From a virus, in the IMG/VR virus record IMGVR_UViG_3300027996_000097, positions 1 to 34,586 of that record: 34,586 nucleotides of DNA; one strand, given 5' to 3'. The notes below the pieces were generated by a model, which did not search any database, had not been told where the DNA came from, and was given only the letters and a program-made list of their open reading frames with translations. Positions 83-13,617 of the stretch are shown here, piece by piece. Positions within the stretch are counted from its first letter, which is position 1; every line of letters starts with the position of its first letter. The position numbers and the translations under genes are program-made.

Positions 83-96
83 AATATTAATTTTTA

Positions 97-128
97 AATT
101 CAACCAACACCAAAGTATTGATTGAATT
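97..128 (-). promoter_or_regulatory. Intergenic hairpin A of the leftward operon
   Basis: The arms 97-110 and 115-128 pair over 14 bp with loop 111-114 (caaa on the plus strand, UUUG in leftward RNA). Two pairs are A-C mismatches on the plus strand but G-U wobbles on the leftward RNA. The hairpin lies between the stop of the gene ending at 133 and the ATG at 82, so it nearly fills the intergenic gap. It is not followed by a U-tract, so it is not a classical terminator. Confidence 0.7.
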
Positions 129-132
129 AATG

Positions 133-408
133 TTAATAACCTCTTTCTGATTTTTCAATTTCAGCATTTTGTTTATAGAGATTGATTAATTTGTCTGCAT
201 TTTCTTTTGCAATATCTTTTATTTCAAGAAGTCTTAATTCAGATAGTTCATCATCATTACTTTCAAGAACATTTATTGCTATTTCAAATGCGTCTTTCAT
301 AATAAGTAAATCTTTTTCTAACATTTTTCTGTCTATCAATCTTTTGATAGCAGTTTTTTGTCTAATTAAAACATCTACTTCATTATCAAGTTTTTTCCAT
401 TGTTCCAT
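133..408 (-). CDS. Small helical protein, unknown function
   Basis: The protein has 91 residues, is highly charged and is rich in Leu, Glu, Lys and Asp. It looks almost entirely alpha-helical and probably coiled-coil; there are no cysteines and no membrane segment. I do not recognise a family. The ATG at 408 sits directly after the conserved leader and hairpin (425-454), which supports the start. A rightward ORF overlaps the same DNA (182-424), but it is Ser/Phe/Leu-rich and looks like an antisense shadow. It belongs to the leftward operon of small accessory genes. Confidence 0.7.
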   Translation of the reverse strand: MEQWKKLDNEVDVLIRQKTAIKRLIDRKMLEKDLLIMKDAFEIAINVLESNDDELSELRLLEIKDIAKENADKLINLYKQNAEIEKSERGY

Positions 409-424
409 AGTATATAATTTTTAA

Positions 425-454
425 ATTCAACCAACACTAAAGTGCTGGTCGAAT
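425..454 (-). promoter_or_regulatory. Intergenic hairpin B of the leftward operon
   Basis: The arms 425-437 and 442-454 pair over 13 bp around loop 438-441 (taaa). Two pairs are A-C on the plus strand and G-U on the leftward RNA. The hairpin starts 3 nt after the upstream gene's stop (458-460) and ends about 17 nt before the ATG at 408. Confidence 0.75.
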
Positions 455-457
455 AAA

Positions 458-730
458 TTATTCGAGAATAATTCTTTGTCTTTTTCTTACACAATCAAAT
501 ATGCATAATATTCTATTAACAATAACTTCTGTCATTGTATTATCAGGTTCTAAGATTAGTAGAACACAATCTTCATTATTGCTTTCATCTACATATTTAA
601 TCTTATGTTTATCTAACATATTTAGTACAATAATGTAAACTTCTTCTGCATTATACATAGCAATAAATTTATCATCATTACCTCTTACCATTAACAAATG
701 AGGGTAAATTTTCAAGTCATACGTTTCCAT
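458..730 (-). CDS. Small hypothetical protein
   Basis: The protein has 90 residues with alternating hydrophobic stretches (YIIVLNML, CVLLILEP, VIVNRILCIFDC), suggesting a small alpha/beta fold. It has three cysteines but no CxxC pair and no recognisable catalytic motif. The ATG at 730 follows the conserved leader and hairpin C. I do not recognise the family. Its place in the operon suggests an early or accessory phage role, which is inference from position only. Confidence 0.7.
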   Translation of the reverse strand: METYDLKIYPHLLMVRGNDDKFIAMYNAEEVYIIVLNMLDKHKIKYVDESNNEDCVLLILEPDNTMTEVIVNRILCIFDCVRKRQRIILE

Positions 731-747
731 AGTTTATAATTTATAAA

Positions 748-775
748 TTCAACAAGCACCTAAGTACTTGTTGAA
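748..775 (-). promoter_or_regulatory. Intergenic hairpin C of the leftward operon
   Basis: The arms 748-759 and 764-775 pair over 12 bp around loop 760-763 (ctaa, UUAG in leftward RNA). One pair is a G-U wobble on the leftward RNA only. It is followed by the conserved A/T leader and the ATG at 730. Unlike hairpins A, B and D it does not touch the upstream stop codon, because the element at 796-865 lies between. Confidence 0.75.
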
Positions 776-795
776 ATGTAGAGAAGTTATTCGTT

Positions 796-865
796 TTAAT
801 GTTAAGTGTTCGGCGTTTAGCCGACAAGCGTAGCTTGAACGCCAGAGCTTGCTCTGTAACATTAA
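796..865. ncRNA. Multi-hairpin structured element
   Basis: A 9-bp perfect outer stem (796-804 with 857-865) encloses several smaller hairpins. These are 810-814 with 820-824 (TCGGC/GCCGA), 826-829 with 833-836 (AAGC/GCTT), and 843-847 with 852-856 (CAGAG/CTCTG). An alternative pairing joins GGCGTT (812-817) to AACGCC (838-843). It is clearly richer in G and C than its surroundings and lies between two leftward genes. It could be a structured RNA, a processing site or a DNA recombination or binding site. The active strand is not certain. Confidence 0.45.
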
Positions 866-885
866 ATAAGAATTACTGAACGGAA

Positions 886-1350
886 TTAAACACCATTTTG
901 AATAATGTATTCTTCATTGCAAGATGAACATTTTAATTTCTCAAGAAATAATGCACCATCCATAGTTCCACAATCTCCTGGTGAAACTAAATCTGTAGCA
1001 CAAATATGTTCATCTTTATAACTATGGTTATTGCAATGAGGACAAGAATAAGATGTTGAAATTTCAGTATCTCCATTCATTCCTAACCATTTTTTATCTT
1101 CTTCAAAAGATAAATGATGATTAAGAAATACATAAGAAATAATCTTTTCTCTATCTTCTTCTCTACTTTTATCAATATCTTTTAATATTGATTGTAATTC
1201 ATCATCAAGGTTATTTGTCATTTCAGAAGGATTTAACCAACCCATTTGAATTAATGATTCAATATTATTAATGGTTTTATTTACCATTAAAATATCATTA
1301 TTTAATCCTGAAATGCTTTGCTTGATTCTATCATAATTTTTGTAGTTCAT
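886..1350 (-). CDS. Helical N-terminus plus C-terminal zinc-ribbon-like protein
   Basis: The protein has 154 residues. Residues 1-75 are predicted helical and charged. The C-terminal part carries cysteines C103 and C106 (CPHC), C117, C127, C141 and C144 (CSSC), an arrangement typical of treble-clef or zinc-ribbon modules. The most likely role is nucleic-acid or protein binding through a structural zinc; no enzymatic motif is visible. The ATG at 1350 follows the conserved leader and hairpin D. I cannot name the family. Confidence 0.75.
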   Translation of the reverse strand: MNYKNYDRIKQSISGLNNDILMVNKTINNIESLIQMGWLNPSEMTNNLDDELQSILKDIDKSREEDREKIISYVFLNHHLSFEEDKKWLGMNGDTEISTSYSCPHCNNHSYKDEHICATDLVSPGDCGTMDGALFLEKLKCSSCNEEYIIQNGV

Positions 1351-1368
1351 AATATATAATTTTTAAAT

Positions 1369-1394
1369 TCGAGTAACACCTAAGTGTTACCCGA
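1369..1394 (-). promoter_or_regulatory. Intergenic hairpin D of the leftward operon
   Basis: The arms 1369-1379 and 1384-1394 pair over 11 bp with loop 1380-1383 (ctaa, UUAG in leftward RNA). One A-C mismatch on the plus strand becomes G-U on the leftward RNA. It sits 7 nt after the upstream gene's stop (1402) and just before the leader of the gene starting at 1350. Confidence 0.75.
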
Positions 1395-1401
1395 TTTACA
1401 A

Positions 1402-1713
1402 TTACATATTAAATTCTTTATGCATTGCTCCAAATACTTCTATTCCTACATCATATTTTGTTATAATGTGTACTAAGTCTGGACTATTTTTATCAGCCCA
1501 TTTTCTAACTATATCCATATTATCAATTGCGTTAATAAATTGATATACCAATATGTTAGCTAAATCTTTATCTTTCATAAACTGAACGATATCGTCATTA
1601 GTCATAAATGGATGCATATCTGAATGCTCTTTCCATAATATATTAATGATATTAGATTTACAATCAGAAGCTTTTTTGTACTGATTAAAAAATGTTGTTA
1701 CATAATTTTCCAT
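1402..1713 (-). CDS. Small hypothetical protein
   Basis: The protein has 103 residues with mixed alpha/beta character and aromatic-rich, amphipathic helices. A single cysteine (C18) and scattered histidines form no known motif. The ATG at 1713 is supported by the conserved leader (1714-1728) and hairpin E. I do not recognise the family. Confidence 0.7.
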   Translation of the reverse strand: MENYVTTFFNQYKKASDCKSNIINILWKEHSDMHPFMTNDDIVQFMKDKDLANILVYQFINAIDNMDIVRKWADKNSPDLVHIITKYDVGIEVFGAMHKEFNM

Positions 1714-1728
1714 AAGTTTATAATTTTA

Positions 1729-1758
1729 AATTCAAGGCACAATTAAGTGCCCTGAATT
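1729..1758 (-). promoter_or_regulatory. Intergenic hairpin E of the leftward operon
   Basis: The arms 1729-1740 and 1747-1758 pair over 12 bp with a longer 6-nt loop (aattaa). One pair is A-C on the plus strand but G-U on the leftward RNA. The conserved leader and the ATG at 1713 follow. Confidence 0.7.
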
Positions 1759-1863
1759 AAAATGGTTTCGTTCATCATATGCTTACCAATAGCAATATGA
1801 TATAGTATAATCTTCTGTAGCTATACTTACATAATTTTTATGATAAGGATTACTTATCTAAAA
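1759..1863. other. Gap with small hairpins, possible gene remnant
   Basis: This gap lies between hairpins E and F and has no complete ORF. It holds two weak hairpins (1804-1809 with 1822-1827; 1842-1847 with 1853-1858). On the leftward strand one frame stays open for about 24 codons and ends at the stop 1783-1785. It reads like protein (NPYHKNYVSIATEDYTISYC) but has no ATG and is preceded by TAG. Hairpin F plus an A/T-rich leader precedes it, so a decayed or deleted small gene is a possible reading. Confidence 0.3.
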
Positions 1864-1889
1864 TCAGATAGCACCTAAGTACTATCTGA
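1864..1889 (-). promoter_or_regulatory. Intergenic hairpin F of the leftward operon
   Basis: The arms 1864-1874 and 1879-1889 pair over 11 bp around loop 1875-1878 (ctaa, UUAG in leftward RNA). One pair is G-U on the leftward RNA only. It begins 6 nt after the stop codon of the gene ending at 1896. No intact gene follows it directly, unlike the other members. Confidence 0.7.
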
Positions 1890-1895
1890 ATCTTA

Positions 1896-2144
1896 CTAAA
1901 ATGGTAAATCATCTTCTTTTTGATTTACTAAAAGCTCTGAAGCTTTACCATTCCAAATTGGGTCTTCTTGACATCTTGAACATATATGAGCTGGTTCCCA
2001 TTGATTTTCATCAGGACAGAACTCAGGCTCAGTACATTCACAACCTTCCAATTCTAAATCTTTTTGAGCATCTTCTGCACATTCTAAATGCATTTGAAGA
2101 TGATTCAATTCCGCTATTACAGCGTCTGTTAACATATTTTTCAT
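1896..2144 (-). CDS. Small acidic Cys-rich protein with SSB-like C-terminal tip
   Basis: With the start at 2144 the protein has 82 residues. A longer frame starts at 2210. However, the conserved operon leader (2145-2160) and a degenerate hairpin lie immediately upstream of 2144, so the inner ATG is preferred. The N-terminal half is helical and acidic. The middle holds a cysteine cluster (CECTEPEFC, then CSRC) that could bind zinc. The last residues, EDDLPF, resemble the acidic C-terminal tip of bacterial single-stranded DNA-binding proteins (DDDIPF in E. coli; DDLPF is the form I recall for Bacteroidota). No OB-fold is present, so this is not an SSB. A role in recruiting SSB-partner proteins is inference. 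Confidence 0.7.
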   Translation of the reverse strand: MKNMLTDAVIAELNHLQMHLECAEDAQKDLELEGCECTEPEFCPDENQWEPAHICSRCQEDPIWNGKASELLVNQKEDDLPF

Positions 2145-2160
2145 AGTTATAAATTTTAAA

Positions 2161-2185
2161 TTCAGATAACACCATAGTAATGTTA
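2161..2185 (-). promoter_or_regulatory. Degenerate hairpin-plus-leader before the gene at 2144
   Basis: The same leader type (AATTTAAAATTTATA on the leftward strand, 2145-2160) precedes the ATG at 2144. The adjoining inverted repeat is much weaker than in hairpins A-F: only about 5 bp (TAACA/TGTTA) with interruptions. It supports the choice of start more than it supports a stable hairpin. It would be the first, promoter-proximal member of the series. Confidence 0.35.
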
Positions 2186-6356: not shown

Positions 6357-8618
6357 ATGAGCGATAGTGTAAATTTTCCAAGACAAAATATTCCTGCTGA
6401 TAAGAAAAACGAAGAATGGGTATTAGACTGTGTAAATGCAATCTTAGGATATCAAGACACAGGAGATAGATACCGGAATGAAAAAGTAAAGGATCACGAA
6501 AATTATCTAATAGCAGAAGGTTATTTTGATATTAAACAATTTGAGTATGTTACCGACATGTACGGTATTACAGCTCCAGCTCGTTTAGTAAATTATCCAA
6601 TTATAATGCCTAAGCTTGATTTATTAGTTGGTGAATTAATATCTCAACCTTTATCATTTACAGCTTATGTAGTTAATAGAAGTGCTATAAGACGTAAGAA
6701 TGAAAAGAAAATTCAAGTTGCAGCAGAATTTATCCTAAGACCTTTAAGAGCTAAAATTTCAGAAGCTACTGGTGTTGAGTTTCAAGATGAAGATTTAGGA
6801 ATGGAACTTCCTGAAGATGTTAAAGCATTTCAAGAATATAAATTTAGAGATGCAATTGAAGATCAAATTCATGTAGGCTTAGAATATCTTATTCAAAAAT
6901 ACGATTTAAAGAATATCTTTAAAAGAGGATTCTTTGATATGGGAGTAACTTCTAAAGAGTTCTATAGAGTAGAAACAAAAAATGGAGACCCAGTACCATC
7001 AAGGTTAGACCCAAGAACAGTTATATACGATCCAGATTCTGACAAAGAAACATTACAAGATTCATTATATGCTGGAGTAGATAAATATTTTACTATTAAT
7101 GAAATTATTGATAGGTGGGGGCATATGCTTACTAAAAAAGATATTGACTATATAGAAGAGTTACAAAATCAAGAATCTGCCTGGTATGCTGATAATAACG
7201 TACCATTTAGTTCATATATATATACACAAGATTCTTCATTAAAAATTAGAGTTGTTGATGTTCAATGGCGTTCTATTAGAATGATGAAGTTTAAAGAATC
7301 TCCTAATAAGTTTGATCCAGAAGTACCTTATTATAAAATGCTTCCAGATAATTATAAAGAAAAGAAAGGTGAGAAGATTGTAAAAAGACCTATGGTTGAG
7401 GTTTGGGAAGCTATTAAAGTTGGACATAAAAAATTAATCAAATGGGGTCCAAAACCTAATCAATATAGATTTGAAGAAAATTATGCTGAAGCTAAATTAG
7501 ATTTCTTTGGTGTTATTAAAACTAATTTAAATGGTAGAACATTATCTATTGTTGATGCTCTTAAAAATATTCAAATACTATATAATGTGGTTATGTATCA
7601 CATTGAGTTATGTATGGCAAGAGCTGGTGGTAAATCTATTGTTTATGATGTTTCACAAAAACCTAAGAATACACCATTAGAAGATGTGTTGTATCATGCT
7701 AAAAACTCAGGATTAATATTAATTAATTCAAAACAAGAAGGTCAACAGATTTCAACATTTAATCAATTTCAACAAATTGATTTTACATTAAGTAATTCAG
7801 TTCAGCAATTAGTTAATTTAAAAATGATGTTAGAAGAAACTGCTGATAAACTTACTGGTATATCTGCTGCAAGAAGTGGAATACAAAAATCAGGAGATTT
7901 AGTAGGAGTAACAGAACGTAATGTATTACAATCAACTACTATTACAGCACCAATTTTTGAATTACATTATAAAATAGTTGGAGAAGTCTTACAAGACATG
8001 GCAAACAAAATGCGTTTGTGTTGGGCTAATGAAGGTCGTATGGCTAATATCTTTGGAGATATGGGTATGCAAACCTTTAAAATTGATAAAGCTATTAGTA
8101 AAGATGAATACGGAATCTTTATAAAAAATAGTAGTAAAGAAGTTCAAGAAAAACAAATGATGTTACAGTTGTTAGAAAGATATTCATCTACTGGAGCTGT
8201 AGAGCCGTTAGCTGCAATTAAAGCTGTTCGTGGTGATAGTGCTACTGAAGTTGAAAATATATTAGTAGGTGCATTAAAAGAAATGAAAGCTCAACAAGTA
8301 GAGTTACAAGAAAGAGAGCTTGCAGCACAAGAAGCTAAAAATGAAATAGACGCTAAGAAAATTCAAGTACCATTAGATGTTGCTCAAATTAAAGCACAGT
8401 CTGATATTCAAGTTGCACAACTTAATAATCAAACTAAATTAGAAATTCACGATAGTGATATTGTACAAGAGCAAGACATGCAACAAGCAAATAGAAATCA
8501 AAATTTAGATGAAATGATGCTTGGGGCTGCTAATGATGAAACTGTTCCAGACATTCTTCCACCAACACAAGAAGCGCCTGTAACAGAAAGAATTGAAGTT
8601 GTAAAAAAGAATGAATAA
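6357..8618 (+). CDS. Portal protein
   Basis: The 753-residue protein would form the dodecameric ring at the capsid vertex that docks TerL and later the tail. It lies directly after TerL (2-nt gap), as usual for tailed phages. The size and the N-terminal region (FDIKQFEYVTDMYGI, LVNYPIIMPKLDLLVGEL) fit crAss-like portals. Residues about 480-560 hold helical segments ending in TADKLTGISAARSGI, typical of the portal region that precedes the barrel. Residues 640-740 form a long Gln/Glu/Ala-rich helix, consistent with an extended C-terminal barrel. No catalytic motif is expected. Confidence 0.9.
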   Translation: MSDSVNFPRQNIPADKKNEEWVLDCVNAILGYQDTGDRYRNEKVKDHENYLIAEGYFDIKQFEYVTDMYGITAPARLVNYPIIMPKLDLLVGELISQPLSFTAYVVNRSAIRRKNEKKIQVAAEFILRPLRAKISEATGVEFQDEDLGMELPEDVKAFQEYKFRDAIEDQIHVGLEYLIQKYDLKNIFKRGFFDMGVTSKEFYRVETKNGDPVPSRLDPRTVIYDPDSDKETLQDSLYAGVDKYFTINEIIDRWGHMLTKKDIDYIEELQNQESAWYADNNVPFSSYIYTQDSSLKIRVVDVQWRSIRMMKFKESPNKFDPEVPYYKMLPDNYKEKKGEKIVKRPMVEVWEAIKVGHKKLIKWGPKPNQYRFEENYAEAKLDFFGVIKTNLNGRTLSIVDALKNIQILYNVVMYHIELCMARAGGKSIVYDVSQKPKNTPLEDVLYHAKNSGLILINSKQEGQQISTFNQFQQIDFTLSNSVQQLVNLKMMLEETADKLTGISAARSGIQKSGDLVGVTERNVLQSTTITAPIFELHYKIVGEVLQDMANKMRLCWANEGRMANIFGDMGMQTFKIDKAISKDEYGIFIKNSSKEVQEKQMMLQLLERYSSTGAVEPLAAIKAVRGDSATEVENILVGALKEMKAQQVELQERELAAQEAKNEIDAKKIQVPLDVAQIKAQSDIQVAQLNNQTKLEIHDSDIVQEQDMQQANRNQNLDEMMLGAANDETVPDILPPTQEAPVTERIEVVKKNE

Positions 8619-8629
8619 ATGTATATTTG
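8598..8629 (+). promoter_or_regulatory. Bacteroidota-type promoter for scaffold and capsid genes
   Basis: GTTG (8598-8601) is followed after 20 bp by TATATTTG (8622-8629). This matches the Bacteroidota sigma-factor consensus of a TTG box at -33 and TAnnTTTG at -7. The predicted transcript start is near 8634-8637, about 12-15 nt before the ATG at 8649. The -33 box lies in the last codons of the portal gene. It would allow host polymerase to transcribe the scaffold and capsid genes separately from packaging genes. Confidence 0.5.
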
Positions 8630-8648
8630 TTAAAACAATACTTTAATT

Positions 8649-9713
8649 ATGGAAGAAAATGTAAATGAAAAAGAAGAGGTAGTTGTTGATAATTCAACAC
8701 CTACAATAGAAAATAATGAAGATACGTCAGCAGTTGATAGTAATAAAGAAACAAAAGAAGATAATTCTTTTGACGCTTCTTTATTTGTTGAAGCATCTGC
8801 AATGGCTGATAGTCCAGATGTAGCTAAAAAGCCAGAAGTAGAAGAAGCTGAAGATACAGTCAAAAATGATACTTCTGATGATTTTGTTTGGGATTATCCT
8901 ACAGAAGCAAAAGACAACAAAGAAATTGTTACTGATAAAACAAAAGAAGAACTTCAAGAACAACCTACAACTATTGAAAATAGTTTTAAATGGGAAGATA
9001 CAGGAATTGAAGGAGTAACTTCAAAAGAAGAATTTGATAATAAGATTGCAGAATATAAAGCTTTAGAAGAAAAATTAACTGAGTATAAAACTCAAAATGT
9101 AAAGTCTGATAAAATAACAAAATTGAGAAATTTTGTATCAATGGAAGATAAAGAGCTTGTAAAGAAAGATTTAGAAATGCAAGGCTTTAAAGAAGAAAAA
9201 TTAGACGAAGCTTTAGAAATTTATGATGCTAATGGCACTATGGATATTGAAGCGCAAAAAATTAGAAATACGCTTAACAAAGCAATACGCAATGAAGAGC
9301 ATAATGAATTAAATCGTGAGCGTGATAATGAAGCAAGGCTTCAAAAAGAGCGTGATGATTCAATGGTAGAATTAAAAAATCATTTAGAAAAAACTGAAAC
9401 AATGTTTGGTTTTAAAATGGCTAAAGATTCTGATAGTTTAAATAAAGTGAGAGGTGATCATTATGAATACATAACATCAGGATCTTTTTTAAAAAGTGTT
9501 ACAGAAAGTAATCAAAATGTTTCAGAAGCAGCATGGCTGTGGAAAAACAAAGATACTATCTTAAAAGCAATGAAAAACCAAGGATATCAAAAAGGCAAGA
9601 AGGAAATTTTGGATAACATTCAAAGACCTGAAATTCCTGGAACTACAAGAATATTAGATCCGACTGGAAAATCAGATGAATTTAATCCTAATTCTTTTAT
9701 GTTTGGAGGTTAA
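8649..9713 (+). CDS. Scaffold-like capsid assembly protein
   Basis: The 354-residue protein is very rich in Glu, Asp, Lys and Asn. Residues 1-110 are acidic and low-complexity, probably disordered. Residues 120-260 are helical with coiled-coil character (EYKALEEKLTEYK; LNRERDNEARLQKERD). The C-terminal region ends FNPNSFMFGG. Placement between portal and MCP, with high charge and helicity, is the classic profile of a scaffolding protein that templates capsid assembly. No protease domain is seen in it. The assignment is by context and composition. Confidence 0.75.
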   Translation: MEENVNEKEEVVVDNSTPTIENNEDTSAVDSNKETKEDNSFDASLFVEASAMADSPDVAKKPEVEEAEDTVKNDTSDDFVWDYPTEAKDNKEIVTDKTKEELQEQPTTIENSFKWEDTGIEGVTSKEEFDNKIAEYKALEEKLTEYKTQNVKSDKITKLRNFVSMEDKELVKKDLEMQGFKEEKLDEALEIYDANGTMDIEAQKIRNTLNKAIRNEEHNELNRERDNEARLQKERDDSMVELKNHLEKTETMFGFKMAKDSDSLNKVRGDHYEYITSGSFLKSVTESNQNVSEAAWLWKNKDTILKAMKNQGYQKGKKEILDNIQRPEIPGTTRILDPTGKSDEFNPNSFMFGG

Positions 9714-9755
9714 GAAACAGAAACATTCGATAATTATTAATATAAAAATGAAAAG

Positions 9756-11129
9756 ATGAAATTTCATAGTGGAACTTATGGGAAGGAAACGATTGAAAGT
9801 AATGCTTTAGTAACAAACTTACTAAAGTACCCTGAAATCGCACGAAACTTAATTCGTCAATACCCACAATACTCATTAACATATTTTGTTGATGGAACTT
9901 CAAGGTTTGCTAAAGAAGAACTTATTGGTGAAAATGCATTTAGATGGTCTATTTTAGGTAGAACTAACAGACCTTCAACTTGTACTGGAACTAACGTAGG
10001 TAACGGACTTGGTTTAACTCAATTCGAAATAGAATTTGAAGAAAATTATTTAAACCCTAACGATGTAATCAGATTTGCTGATAAAGCTCAAGCTGTAGTT
10101 GTTGGAGAGCCTTCTGCAACTGCAGGTGGATATACTTTCCAATTAAAGCTTATGACTACTGACGTTGCTTTAGCTGTTAGTGCTGCTGCATTACTTGCTG
10201 GTGTTACAGTTGGTAAAGTTGGTACTGCATTTACAGAAAGCTCTGAAAGAGGTTACGAAAATCATGTTTACCCAGATTGGTATATCAATCACTTAGGTAT
10301 CAACAGAAAAGCTAAATCAATTAGTGGTTCAGCTCTTACTGATGTTACTTGGATTGAAGCTGGTGGACAAAGATTGTGGTACTTTGCTGATCAAGAGATT
10401 GCAATGGATGAATATCTTTATGAGCTTGAATTAGACTCATGGTATTCTACTTCTACAATGGATGCTAACAACAACTCTTCAGTTTTTGATTTAAATGGTA
10501 AGCCACTTGTAAAAGGTGACGGTATCTTAAGACAAATTGATGCTGCTAACGTTGATACTTATTCTGGTCCTTTGACTGAAAAAAGATTAACGGATTTCTT
10601 AGCTCAATTGAAATTAAATACTGGTGAGAAAAATGCTCATTGGATGGTATTTACTGGTACTGCCGGTATGGTTGCTTTCCATGAAGCAATGAAAGATTTA
10701 GTATACCCAAGTGGTAACTTAATCTATGATGCATTGATAGGTAAGGATATGGAAATTGGTGTTAACTTTACAAGTTATAACGCTATCGGTCAGAGAATGA
10801 CTCTTGTTCATAATCCTCTATTTGATGATCCAAACTTGCATGGCAATGATATTGACCCAGCAACTGGATATCCTAAAGAAAGTTTCAGAATGGTATTCTT
10901 AAATATGGGAACAACTAATGGTGTTTCTAACATTGAGAAGAAAGTTAAGGGAGCTGGAGGTATTAACCGTTCTATGATTATTAAATATATTCCTGGTATG
11001 GTTGATCCATTTGATCAAGGTTCAATGAGAGCTGCAAATTCAAGAGATGCTTTCACATGTGAGATTCTTTCAGAATCTGGTATTGTGGTAAGAAATCCTC
11101 TTTCTTGTGGTCAACTTATTTTTGCATAA
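9756..11129 (+). CDS. Major capsid protein (HK97-fold)
   Basis: At 457 residues this is a typical length for crAss-like capsid proteins. It follows the scaffold-like gene, and features such as QYPQYSLTYFVDGTSRF, RWSILGRTNRPS and a Gly/Val/Ala-rich middle fit that family. The start is the ATG at 9756; a nearer upstream ATG (9748) is stopped after three codons. The gene uses more C-ending codons (TTC, AAC, TAC, ATC) than its neighbours, as expected for a very highly expressed protein. There is no sign of a cleaved prodomain. HK97 fold is inferred from family knowledge, not from a visible motif. Confidence 0.9.
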   Translation: MKFHSGTYGKETIESNALVTNLLKYPEIARNLIRQYPQYSLTYFVDGTSRFAKEELIGENAFRWSILGRTNRPSTCTGTNVGNGLGLTQFEIEFEENYLNPNDVIRFADKAQAVVVGEPSATAGGYTFQLKLMTTDVALAVSAAALLAGVTVGKVGTAFTESSERGYENHVYPDWYINHLGINRKAKSISGSALTDVTWIEAGGQRLWYFADQEIAMDEYLYELELDSWYSTSTMDANNNSSVFDLNGKPLVKGDGILRQIDAANVDTYSGPLTEKRLTDFLAQLKLNTGEKNAHWMVFTGTAGMVAFHEAMKDLVYPSGNLIYDALIGKDMEIGVNFTSYNAIGQRMTLVHNPLFDDPNLHGNDIDPATGYPKESFRMVFLNMGTTNGVSNIEKKVKGAGGINRSMIIKYIPGMVDPFDQGSMRAANSRDAFTCEILSESGIVVRNPLSCGQLIFA

Positions 11130-11152
11130 ATTAATATTATTAACTGAAAGTA

Positions 11153-13588: not shown

Positions 13589-13617
13589 AGGGAGTAATCT
13601 TAGTGTTACTCCCTTTT
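13589..13617 (+). terminator. Rho-independent terminator
   Basis: A 9-bp stem (AGGGAGTAA 13589-13597 with TTACTCCCT 13606-13614) carries an 8-nt loop TCTTAGTG and is followed by a T-run (13614-13617). It lies 25 nt after the stop at 13564 and 14 nt before the next ATG (13631). It probably reduces read-through from the capsid genes into the tail genes. The loop contains UUAG, as in most leftward hairpins, so it may be the rightward counterpart of that family. Confidence 0.7.

Follow-up and report, generated by a model that had tools for sequence, protein, structure and literature searches.

A dispersed family of covarying RNA hairpins next to start codons in a clade of crAss-like phages

Background

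The closest described counterparts of the elements reported here are the SAS/ESAS sequences of the cluster K mycobacteriophages. Within this one phage group they occur in many dispersed copies just before start codons. In each, a short conserved leader is preceded by an imperfect inverted repeat, the consensus of which varies by subgroup; a role in translation initiation is suspected (PMC3203893). Our elements likewise occur in dispersed copies directly upstream of start codons. They are comparable but not members, as SAS reads GGGATAGGAGCCC, whereas the leader here is AATTTAAAAATTATA-like, AU-rich and almost free of G. Furthermore, the ESAS repeats are 17 bp long with mostly 4–13 bp spacers, and covariation at the RNA level is not reported in the accessible part of that paper (PMC3203893). 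Tight loops, compensatory changes and a G-U bias distinguish the present elements from ESAS, and the phages and hosts are unrelated.

Stable intergenic hairpins with a C(UUCG)G cap and tolerated G-U pairs are also known from the mRNA of T4 and other phages; for these intercistronic CUUCGG hairpins, PMC8948821 refers to Tuerk 1988 and the T4 gene 32 leader. In contrast, the elements described here stand at most uncoupled genes of one module, at a fixed site before the AUG and with a leader of their own, and their caps are UUAG, UUUG or UUUA in the lineage of our sequence and other loops in deeper lineages. The promoters of the N4 virion RNA polymerase, an enzyme type which this phage group possesses as well, are short inverted repeats followed by AT-rich DNA, located before early genes (PMC4496689). 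However, N4 hairpins work as template-strand DNA (PMC4496689), whereas the wobble bias found here indicates the coding-sense strand; moreover, our stems are longer and the copies far more numerous. Finally, the translation initiation region of Bacteroidota resembles our leaders in being A-rich at about -11 to -14, with A at -3, low structure and no Shine-Dalgarno sequence, and in F. johnsoniae A-12/A-13, A-3 and low structure boost initiation. In contrast to our elements, it lacks an upstream hairpin, and a fixed U at -1 is not reported for it in the accessible part of the source (PMC6847099).

Results

Six hairpins in the window

The window, i.e. the whole stretch of DNA analysed, comprises positions 1 to 34,586 (34.6 kb) of IMG/VR record IMGVR_UViG_3300027996_000097 from an uncultured crAss-like virus. 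Its crAss-like TerL, portal and major head protein (PHROG matches) identify it as a Crassvirales phage. The closest named relatives of TerL are Crassvirales, with Oafivirinae first at 26.6% identity, and no nucleotide relatives were found among named phages. The left end carries the following features, all on the leftward strand.

83..96, (-), G-free AU-rich leader between hairpin 1 and its ATG
97..128, (-), hairpin 1, AATTCAATCAATAC (UUUG) GUGUUGGUUGAAUU, 14 bp, 2 G-U
133..408, (-), ORF of 91 aa without family match
409..424, (-), leader of gene 133-408; the exact AATTTAAAAATTATA at 413-427 overlaps the stem base
425..454, (-), hairpin 2, ATTCGACCAGCAC (UUUA) GUGUUGGUUGAAU, 13 bp, 2 G-U
458..730, (-), ORF of 90 aa without family match
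731..747, (-), leader of gene 458-730
748..775, (-), hairpin 3, TTCAACAAGTAC (UUAG) GUGCUUGUUGAA, 12 bp
886..1350, (-), ORF of 154 aa without family match
1351..1368, (-), leader of gene 886-1350
1369..1394, (-), hairpin 4, TCGGGTAACAC (UUAG) GUGUUACUCGA, 11 bp, precedes gene 886-1350
1402..1713, (-), ORF of 103 aa without family match
1714..1728, (-), leader of gene 1402-1713
1729..1758, (-), hairpin 5, AATTCAGGGCAC (UUAAUU) GUGCCUUGAAUU, 12 bp, loop of 6, precedes gene 1402-1713
1864..1889, (-), hairpin 6, orphan, TCAGATAGTAC (UUAG) GUGCUAUCUGA, 11 bp
1896..2144, (-), ORF of about 82 aa if started at ATG 2144; the listed extent, 1896-2210, uses an earlier ATG
2167..2185, (-), degenerate seventh element, 8 bp, loop of 3, precedes the first leftward gene

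An earlier note on this DNA had described the six hairpins as differing in stem sequence while remaining paired, and all of them are indeed present at these positions. Their stems of 14, 13, 12, 11, 12 and 11 bp contain no mismatch besides G-U, and the eight non-Watson-Crick pairs counted in that note are exactly eight G-U pairs on the leftward strand, beside 65 Watson-Crick pairs. The loops, called mostly UUAG-like, are UUAG in three of six cases, the remainder being UUUG, UUUA and UUAAUU. Throughout the 34.6-kb window these are the only contiguous stems of at least 11 bp with a loop of 4 or 6 on the leftward strand. When the first 2,200 nt were dinucleotide-shuffled 500 times, such stems averaged 0.17 per shuffle, with a maximum of 3; together with the covariation described below, this excludes chance inverted repeats.

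Hairpin 1 is the putative start element of a gene that leaves the window at its left end (ATG 82-80). Hairpin 2 follows the stop codon of gene 458-730 by 3 nt, with the ATG of gene 133-408 located 16 nt further on, whereas the upstream stop of hairpin 3 is 110 nt away and the ATG of gene 458-730 only 17 nt. Hairpin 6 lies about 6 nt past the stop of gene 1896-2144 and has no gene after it. For this first leftward gene the start at 2144 is probably the right one, rather than that at 2210. A protein search with the 91-aa ORF (133..408) returned no relatives, a tRNA scan found no tRNA, and an Rfam search of the window, L081 and L082 gave no match above the gathering score.

The earlier note had also held that these are not ordinary terminators. 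This stands for five of the six hairpins, for which the scan rejects an intrinsic, Rho-independent terminator, but not for hairpin 6, which passes the scan with a TTTTAG tail. Terminators with runs of 8–10 T are present elsewhere in the same or related genomes.

Covariation and strand of selection in relatives

A loose pattern scan yielded 39 matches with real hairpins only in L023, L024 and L039, and a stricter one 17 matches, many by chance. A covariance search in relatives, named beforehand as the test that could overturn the idea of a family, returned many copies. They include copies in records outside the training set of the model (DnaB 88% or TerL 55–60% identity), and with few exceptions they lie in the early/replication module, on its sense strand; relative G025 alone holds at least 13 over about 17 kb. 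The top match (71.6 bits) is hairpin 1, itself part of the model, and the seventh element is matched weakly at 2142-2181 (E 4.2). The same search found no copies in seven named Crassvirales genomes, and among distant DnaB contigs (L142 onward) members did not rise above chance. The hairpins belong to a dispersed family within a crAss-like phage clade. We found no description of such hairpins in crAss-like phages in the collection of open-access papers searched.

Among 16 unique C(UUNN)G elements, compensatory changes occur at 9 of 13 pairs. The number of compensatory cells was 36 versus 10.5 after shuffling and the covariation score 0.636 versus 0.260, with none of 500 shuffles reaching the observed score; slid controls gave at most 0.17. 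Apex and base of the stem are conserved and the middle varies with compensation. For hairpin 3, relative G008 has the compensatory version CAACAGGTAC/GTGCCTGTTG. Loop and stem consensus are specific for each lineage (UUAG/UUUG; UUCG; CCAUU/UCCC) and common to the elements within it: UUAG, UUUG and UUUA are typical of the window's own lineage and UUCG caps the hairpins of most relatives, the C(UUCG)G cap being found in G003, G005, G006, G008 16341, G025, L138 and others, not in the window.

When all non-Watson-Crick pairs were penalised equally, the ratio of G-T to A-C on the coding strand was 55:0 in the window's clade, counted over 44 unique elements, and 55:5 in deeper lineages. This excess bears out the suggestion, made from the window alone, that selection acts on the leftward transcript, and it speaks against selection on a template-strand DNA hairpin.

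Leader and spacing to the start codon

A leader followed by ATG comes after five of the six hairpins, in line with the earlier claim that it precedes most ATGs; the exception is 1864-1889. Exact copies of AATTTAAAAATTATA are located at 413-427 and 1355-1369, copies with one mismatch at 735-749 and 2148-2162, one with two mismatches at 86-100, and one with a 1-nt deletion at about 1714-1728. We compared 47 hairpin starts with 287 other starts. T at -1 is found in 98% of the former and 42% of the latter, and in each genome of the clade this enrichment is confined to the hairpin class. The leaders contain 2.9% G at hairpin starts versus 10.5% at others, and A at -12 reaches 85% versus 61%. At -10 to -13, A makes up 64–85% at hairpin starts, a pattern that is weaker, yet present, at starts without a hairpin, whereas A at -3 (60%) is equally frequent in both classes. 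With this richness in A, the A at -3 and the scarcity of G, the leaders show the features of a Bacteroidota initiation region, for which A-rich positions around -11 to -14 and low structure are also typical.

Hairpins without a U-run lie at a median of 15.5 nt upstream of ATG, and for 13 of the 16 unique C(TTNN)G elements the ATG is at most 24 nt away. In long gaps they stay near the ATG and far from the stop (stop/ATG distances of 110/17, 133/11 and 89/9 nt). In orthologous gaps before DnaB the hairpin is retained 4–5 nt after the stop and 10–13 nt before the ATG with changed stems. Hairpins occupy 12/17, 12/17, 13/16, 11/16 and 4/4 of the leftward gaps versus 0/3, 0/7, 1/4, 1/13 and 1/7 of the late-module gaps, and they split the leftward module into units of coupled genes. 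The hairpin is selected in the coding-sense strand and tracks the start codon, and the leader bears a Bacteroidota initiation signature.

Discussion

Our tentative reading, to which we give close to even credence, is that the leftward early/replication module carries these hairpins and leaders on its sense strand as mRNA start elements. The earlier note had proposed three functions, among which translation start is best supported, both by how far the hairpins lie from the AUG and by the signature of the leader; processing and protein binding are less so. Each element consists of an 11–17 bp hairpin, mostly with a C(UUNG)G cap in the window's lineage, a single-stranded leader of 9–25 nt with almost no G, with A at -10 to -13 as well as U at -1, and the AUG; such elements occupy most gaps of the module where the preceding gene does not overlap the next. 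In a long polycistronic transcript the leader might be the ribosome-loading site of Bacteroidota hosts, which do without Shine-Dalgarno pairing, and the hairpin might form its upstream border, setting the leader apart from the previous cistron. It may also stabilise the 5' end should the transcript be cut. Judged from sequence, the hosts probably belong to the Bacteroidota, the transcript is probably polycistronic and the hairpin probably demarcates or stabilises the start. Guarding the start from misfolding is a role that we tried and rejected: in constrained folding, replacing the hairpin by shuffled sequence left the predicted cost of opening the start region unchanged (4.55 vs 4.67 kcal/mol, p = 0.58), so that such protection is not supported. 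Three observations speak against start elements. In short gaps the hairpin is equally near the stop codon, so that protection of a 3' end also fits; T at -1 beside the A of ATG resembles a transcription start; and the late genes do without hairpins.

Rather unlikely, in our view, are processing or stability elements. Cleavage of the early polycistronic transcript would then fall close to each hairpin, either within the stem or within the AU-rich leader, and the hairpins would guard the 3' or 5' ends of the shorter pieces, in the manner of the RNase III sites of T7 or the leader of T4 gene 32. The hairpins do stand between most uncoupled genes of the leftward module, and their AU-rich single strands beside stems recall the targets of RNase E-type enzymes, which typically are of this kind. 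Many relatives carry C(UUCG)G caps, and the T4 gene 32 transcript is stabilised by a 5' CUUCGG hairpin (as cited in PMC8948821). However, in long gaps the hairpin keeps to the start and not to the stop, which speaks against 3' protection as its main role, and the leader is tied to the ATG, with a translation signature. We hold it distinctly improbable that these are terminator-promoter cassettes, with the upstream transcript terminated at the hairpin and a promoter in the AT-rich leader. Single genes or gene groups would then form transcription units of their own, perhaps served by the virion RNA polymerase, and their mRNAs would have no leader or a very short one. The T at -1 with the A of ATG fits the pyrimidine-purine pattern of transcription starts, the leader is uniform and AT-rich, and the module is divided by hairpins into units of coupled genes. 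Against this, a U-tract is lacking, with hairpin 6 alone passing the scan although the same or related genomes do contain terminators with 8–10 T, and the host sigma factor element TANNTTTG, as given in PMC6847099, is missing from the leaders. The weaker A-rich pattern at hairpin-less starts is what one would expect of a ribosome-loading site.

By far the least credible are N4-like DNA promoters, in which the inverted repeat would extrude from the DNA and the injected virion RNA polymerase would recognise it on the template strand. The early genes of crAss-like phages are indeed transcribed by a giant virion RNA polymerase (PMC8375218), and the hairpins of N4 promoters, too, have some stem positions that are conserved and others that vary (PMC4496689). 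However, a coding-strand G-T is an A-C mismatch on the template strand, and the ratios given above disfavour such a hairpin. In addition, the N4 hairpin has a stem of only ~7 bp and a 3-nt loop, unlike the 11–17 bp stems and mostly 4-nt loops found here, and the number of copies in G025 argues against N4-type promoters. Quite doubtful, too, are binding sites of a lineage-specific phage RNA-binding protein or regulator with the module as its regulon. A constant apex and base around a compensating mid-stem would suit this, as would a consensus that is lineage-specific yet common within the lineage, as in ESAS. On the other hand, the likeness of elements within one genome may merely reflect shared descent or recombination, and no candidate protein was found, the small leftward genes matching no family.

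A broader proposal, which we consider unlikely, is that hairpin and leader together are the recognition unit of a lineage-specific trans-acting factor that switches the early/replication module gene by gene. If true, this factor would be either an RNA-binding protein of the phage or the injected RNA polymerase, the latter working on the nascent RNA, and each crAss-like lineage would hold a phage-wide RNA regulon with a code co-evolving with its reader. Crassvirales are among the most abundant human gut viruses, and to our knowledge little is understood about how their early and middle genes are expressed. An RNA family that covaries, stands at most separately spaced starts of one module and is rare in the late module provides a testable handle on post-transcriptional control and is relevant to gene starts in hosts without Shine-Dalgarno pairing.

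Two elements coincide with boundaries of gene replacement or gene loss. Homology to relatives stops at window position 400, just beyond the ATG served by hairpin 2, and in relative G001 about 85 nt between hairpins 6 and 5 are missing, which suggests gain or loss of a gene. The elements may thus shape the swapping of small genes.

Hairpins in the window and its relatives

The window is a linear virus record of 34,586 bases with PHROG matches for terminase, portal and major head protein. The nearest named terminases belong to Crassvirales, Oafivirinae ranking top at about 27% identity, and by these matches its source is a crAss-like phage. Small leftward genes reach to about position 2144; between them and the rightward structural module lie about 750 nt of non-coding sequence. 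The six hairpins that an earlier note had described among the leftward genes were all found in place:

97-128, leftward strand, hairpin 1
425-454, leftward strand, hairpin 2
748-775, leftward strand, hairpin 3
1369-1394, leftward strand, hairpin 4
1729-1758, leftward strand, hairpin 5
1864-1889, leftward strand, hairpin 6

No other contiguous stem of at least 11 bp exists on this strand; the shuffled first 2,200 nt of the window gave a mean of 0.17. The note's observation that all non-Watson-Crick pairs are G-U on the leftward strand was confirmed as well: the stems contain 65 Watson-Crick pairs, 8 G-U pairs and no further mismatch. A leader and an ATG follow five of the six hairpins; no gene follows hairpin 6.

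The same elements occur in relatives reached via the terminase (86–100% identity), via hairpin patterns and via a relative's DnaB helicase (76–100%). All clade records are uncultured fragments with gene starts from a simple ORF caller, and counts overstate independent events since several relatives are near-identical. In the relatives G007 and G008, whose early/replication module codes for DnaB, a Sak4-like annealing protein, an SSB-like protein and others, strong hairpins occupy 12 of 17 gaps of this module each, against none of 7 and none of 3 late gaps. Scanning both strands of all clade records for the cap C(TTNN)G on at least 9 bp yielded 16 unique hairpins, every one on the sense strand of the early/replication module and 13 with an ATG at most 24 nt away. 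Their gap-free alignment has 94.7% of cells paired against 76.6% when shuffled, a figure inflated because the hairpins were picked for pairing. Such picking does not account for their location or for the compensatory counts: both partners have changed in 9 of 13 pairs, and covariation scores 0.636 versus 0.260 shuffled and at most 0.169 slid. Orthologous gaps before DnaB contain changed but still paired stems (TCAAGGTACACC/GGTGTGCCTTGA, TCAGGGCACGCCA/TGGTGTGCCTTGA, TCAGGGAATATCG/CGGTGTTCCCTGA, TACGGGGAGCA/TGTTCCTCGTA). The window hairpins are members of one family, not six accidents.

Selected strand

In scans penalising every non-Watson-Crick pair equally, 44 unique clade elements showed 55 G-T versus 0 A-C pairs on the coding strand. 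Other lineages gave 55 versus 5, their first set, G009, overlapping the clade (DnaB 88% identity). Binomial p-values are too small for these related, non-independent elements; the direction is unambiguous and repeated. This shows that what is selected is the coding-sense strand in single-stranded form, most simply as mRNA, and a hairpin in the non-template DNA strand may be compatible with the same counts. The injected RNA polymerase with which crAss-like phages transcribe early genes (PMC8375218) makes a template-strand DNA hairpin as in phage N4 (PMC4496689) attractive, but the G-T excess in both sets disfavours such a hairpin.

Association with translation starts

Short gaps (42–56 nt) are filled by the element, 0–6 nt past the stop and 9–20 nt ahead of the ATG. 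In long gaps the hairpin stays near the ATG (stop/ATG distances 110/17, 133/11, 89/9 and 92/27 nt) while several U-tract terminators remain near the stop; therefore, the element belongs to the start, not the stop. Genes overlapping the preceding gene have no element.

Hairpin starts were picked by the hairpin, its distance and the lack of a T-run, leader bases playing no part. T stands at -1 in 98% of 47 unique hairpin starts versus 42% of other starts, A at -10 to -13 in 64–85% versus 58–61%, and G makes up 2.9% versus 10.5% of positions -16 to -1. A U at -1 could allow longer codon-anticodon pairing; were the leader a promoter, it could mark the transcription start. The host group would be Bacteroidota, going by the crAss-like affiliation. 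In F. johnsoniae, translation rises with A at -12/-13, -3 and -6 and is helped by low structure (PMC6847099); with this base pattern the leader resembles a strong initiation region of Bacteroidota.

Most likely, they serve as start elements on a polycistronic mRNA, in which the stable hairpin would form the upstream edge and the G-free leader would load the ribosome, followed by the AUG. The simplest version, in which the hairpin would protect the start region against misfolding, failed a direct test (4.55 vs 4.67 kcal/mol, p = 0.58). The hairpin may instead separate cistrons physically for the ribosomes, stabilise the 5' end left by cleavage or bind a protein; the last would suit the conserved apex and base, the compensated mid-stem and the lineage-dependent consensus, but shared descent would suit these features too.

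Cluster K mycobacteriophages and T4 provide the nearest parallels, the former with their start-associated sequences (SAS/ESAS), the latter, like some other phages, with CUUCGG intercistronic hairpins (PMC8948821); by analogy the crAss-like elements would work like both. As far as described in PMC3203893, SAS/ESAS likewise join a start-proximal leader to an upstream inverted repeat with subgroup-specific consensus; the crAss-like leader is, however, not SAS by sequence, and the cap in the window itself is not UUCG.

Cassette behaviour

In the window, sequence homology with relatives spans hairpin 2 and its leader and ends at position 400, just inside the next gene, beyond which the genes differ. 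Between hairpins 6 and 5, about 85 nt are present or absent when the window is compared with the relative G001; this would account for hairpin 6 being an orphan. Non-orthologous clade elements align at 77–87% over 36–61 nt, perhaps enough to aid recombination; we regard this behaviour as a consequence of the elements, not their function.

Breadth across crAss-like phages

A covariance-model search of relatives, as the earlier note had proposed, found members in records outside the model's build set. G009 and G010 hold many sites (E down to 1e-7), and matches extend to relatives with 55–60% terminase identity (L218/G025, L231, L260, L221, L235), L218/G025 having at least 13 copies at 10.8–27.4 kb on a single strand. 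In deeper lineages the consensus is lineage-specific: G025 has UUCG caps and the core AGUACUUCGGUACU, and L260, L221 and L235 combine loops CCAUU, UCCC or ACCC with a UCAA/UUGA base. Seven named Crassvirales genomes, crAss001 and phi14:2 among them, gave no match above chance. Named genomes do contain intergenic hairpins, many of which carry U-tracts. In crAss001, cr10_1 and cr1_1 (L106-L110, L121-L130), about 22 of 25 hairpin-preceded starts have T at -1 versus roughly half elsewhere, a weak hint at a wider Crassvirales habit; phi14:2 shows no such enrichment. The mostly open-access literature searched contained no account of such hairpins in crAss-like phages.

Other features

The non-coding stretch at 2200-2960 is richer in GC (34%), has no Rfam match and is likely a regulatory region or origin; its 10-bp stem at 2408-2431 also occurs in the relatives G001 and G004. 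Upstream of hairpin 3, the long gap at 776-885 contains the GC-rich dyads GTTCGGCGTTTAGCCGAC and GAGCTTGCTC. The lone late-module hairpin at 13589-13614 (GGGAGTAA-UUACUCCC, then UUUUAU) is probably a conserved intrinsic terminator, since a comparable late gap in L222, L231, L232 and L233 contains a U-tract terminator.

In cr273_1 (L077), the terminase annotated at 7908-9965 contains four in-frame stop codons in table 11 and reads through when TAG is glutamine, consistent with stop-codon reassignment; unlike it, the terminase of the window reads normally. The crAss-like relative L082 encodes a Mom-like DNA modification protein (9092-9718) as well as a PRTRC-system protein E and a ThiF-family protein (6624-7394 and 10383-11147), components found together in plasmids.
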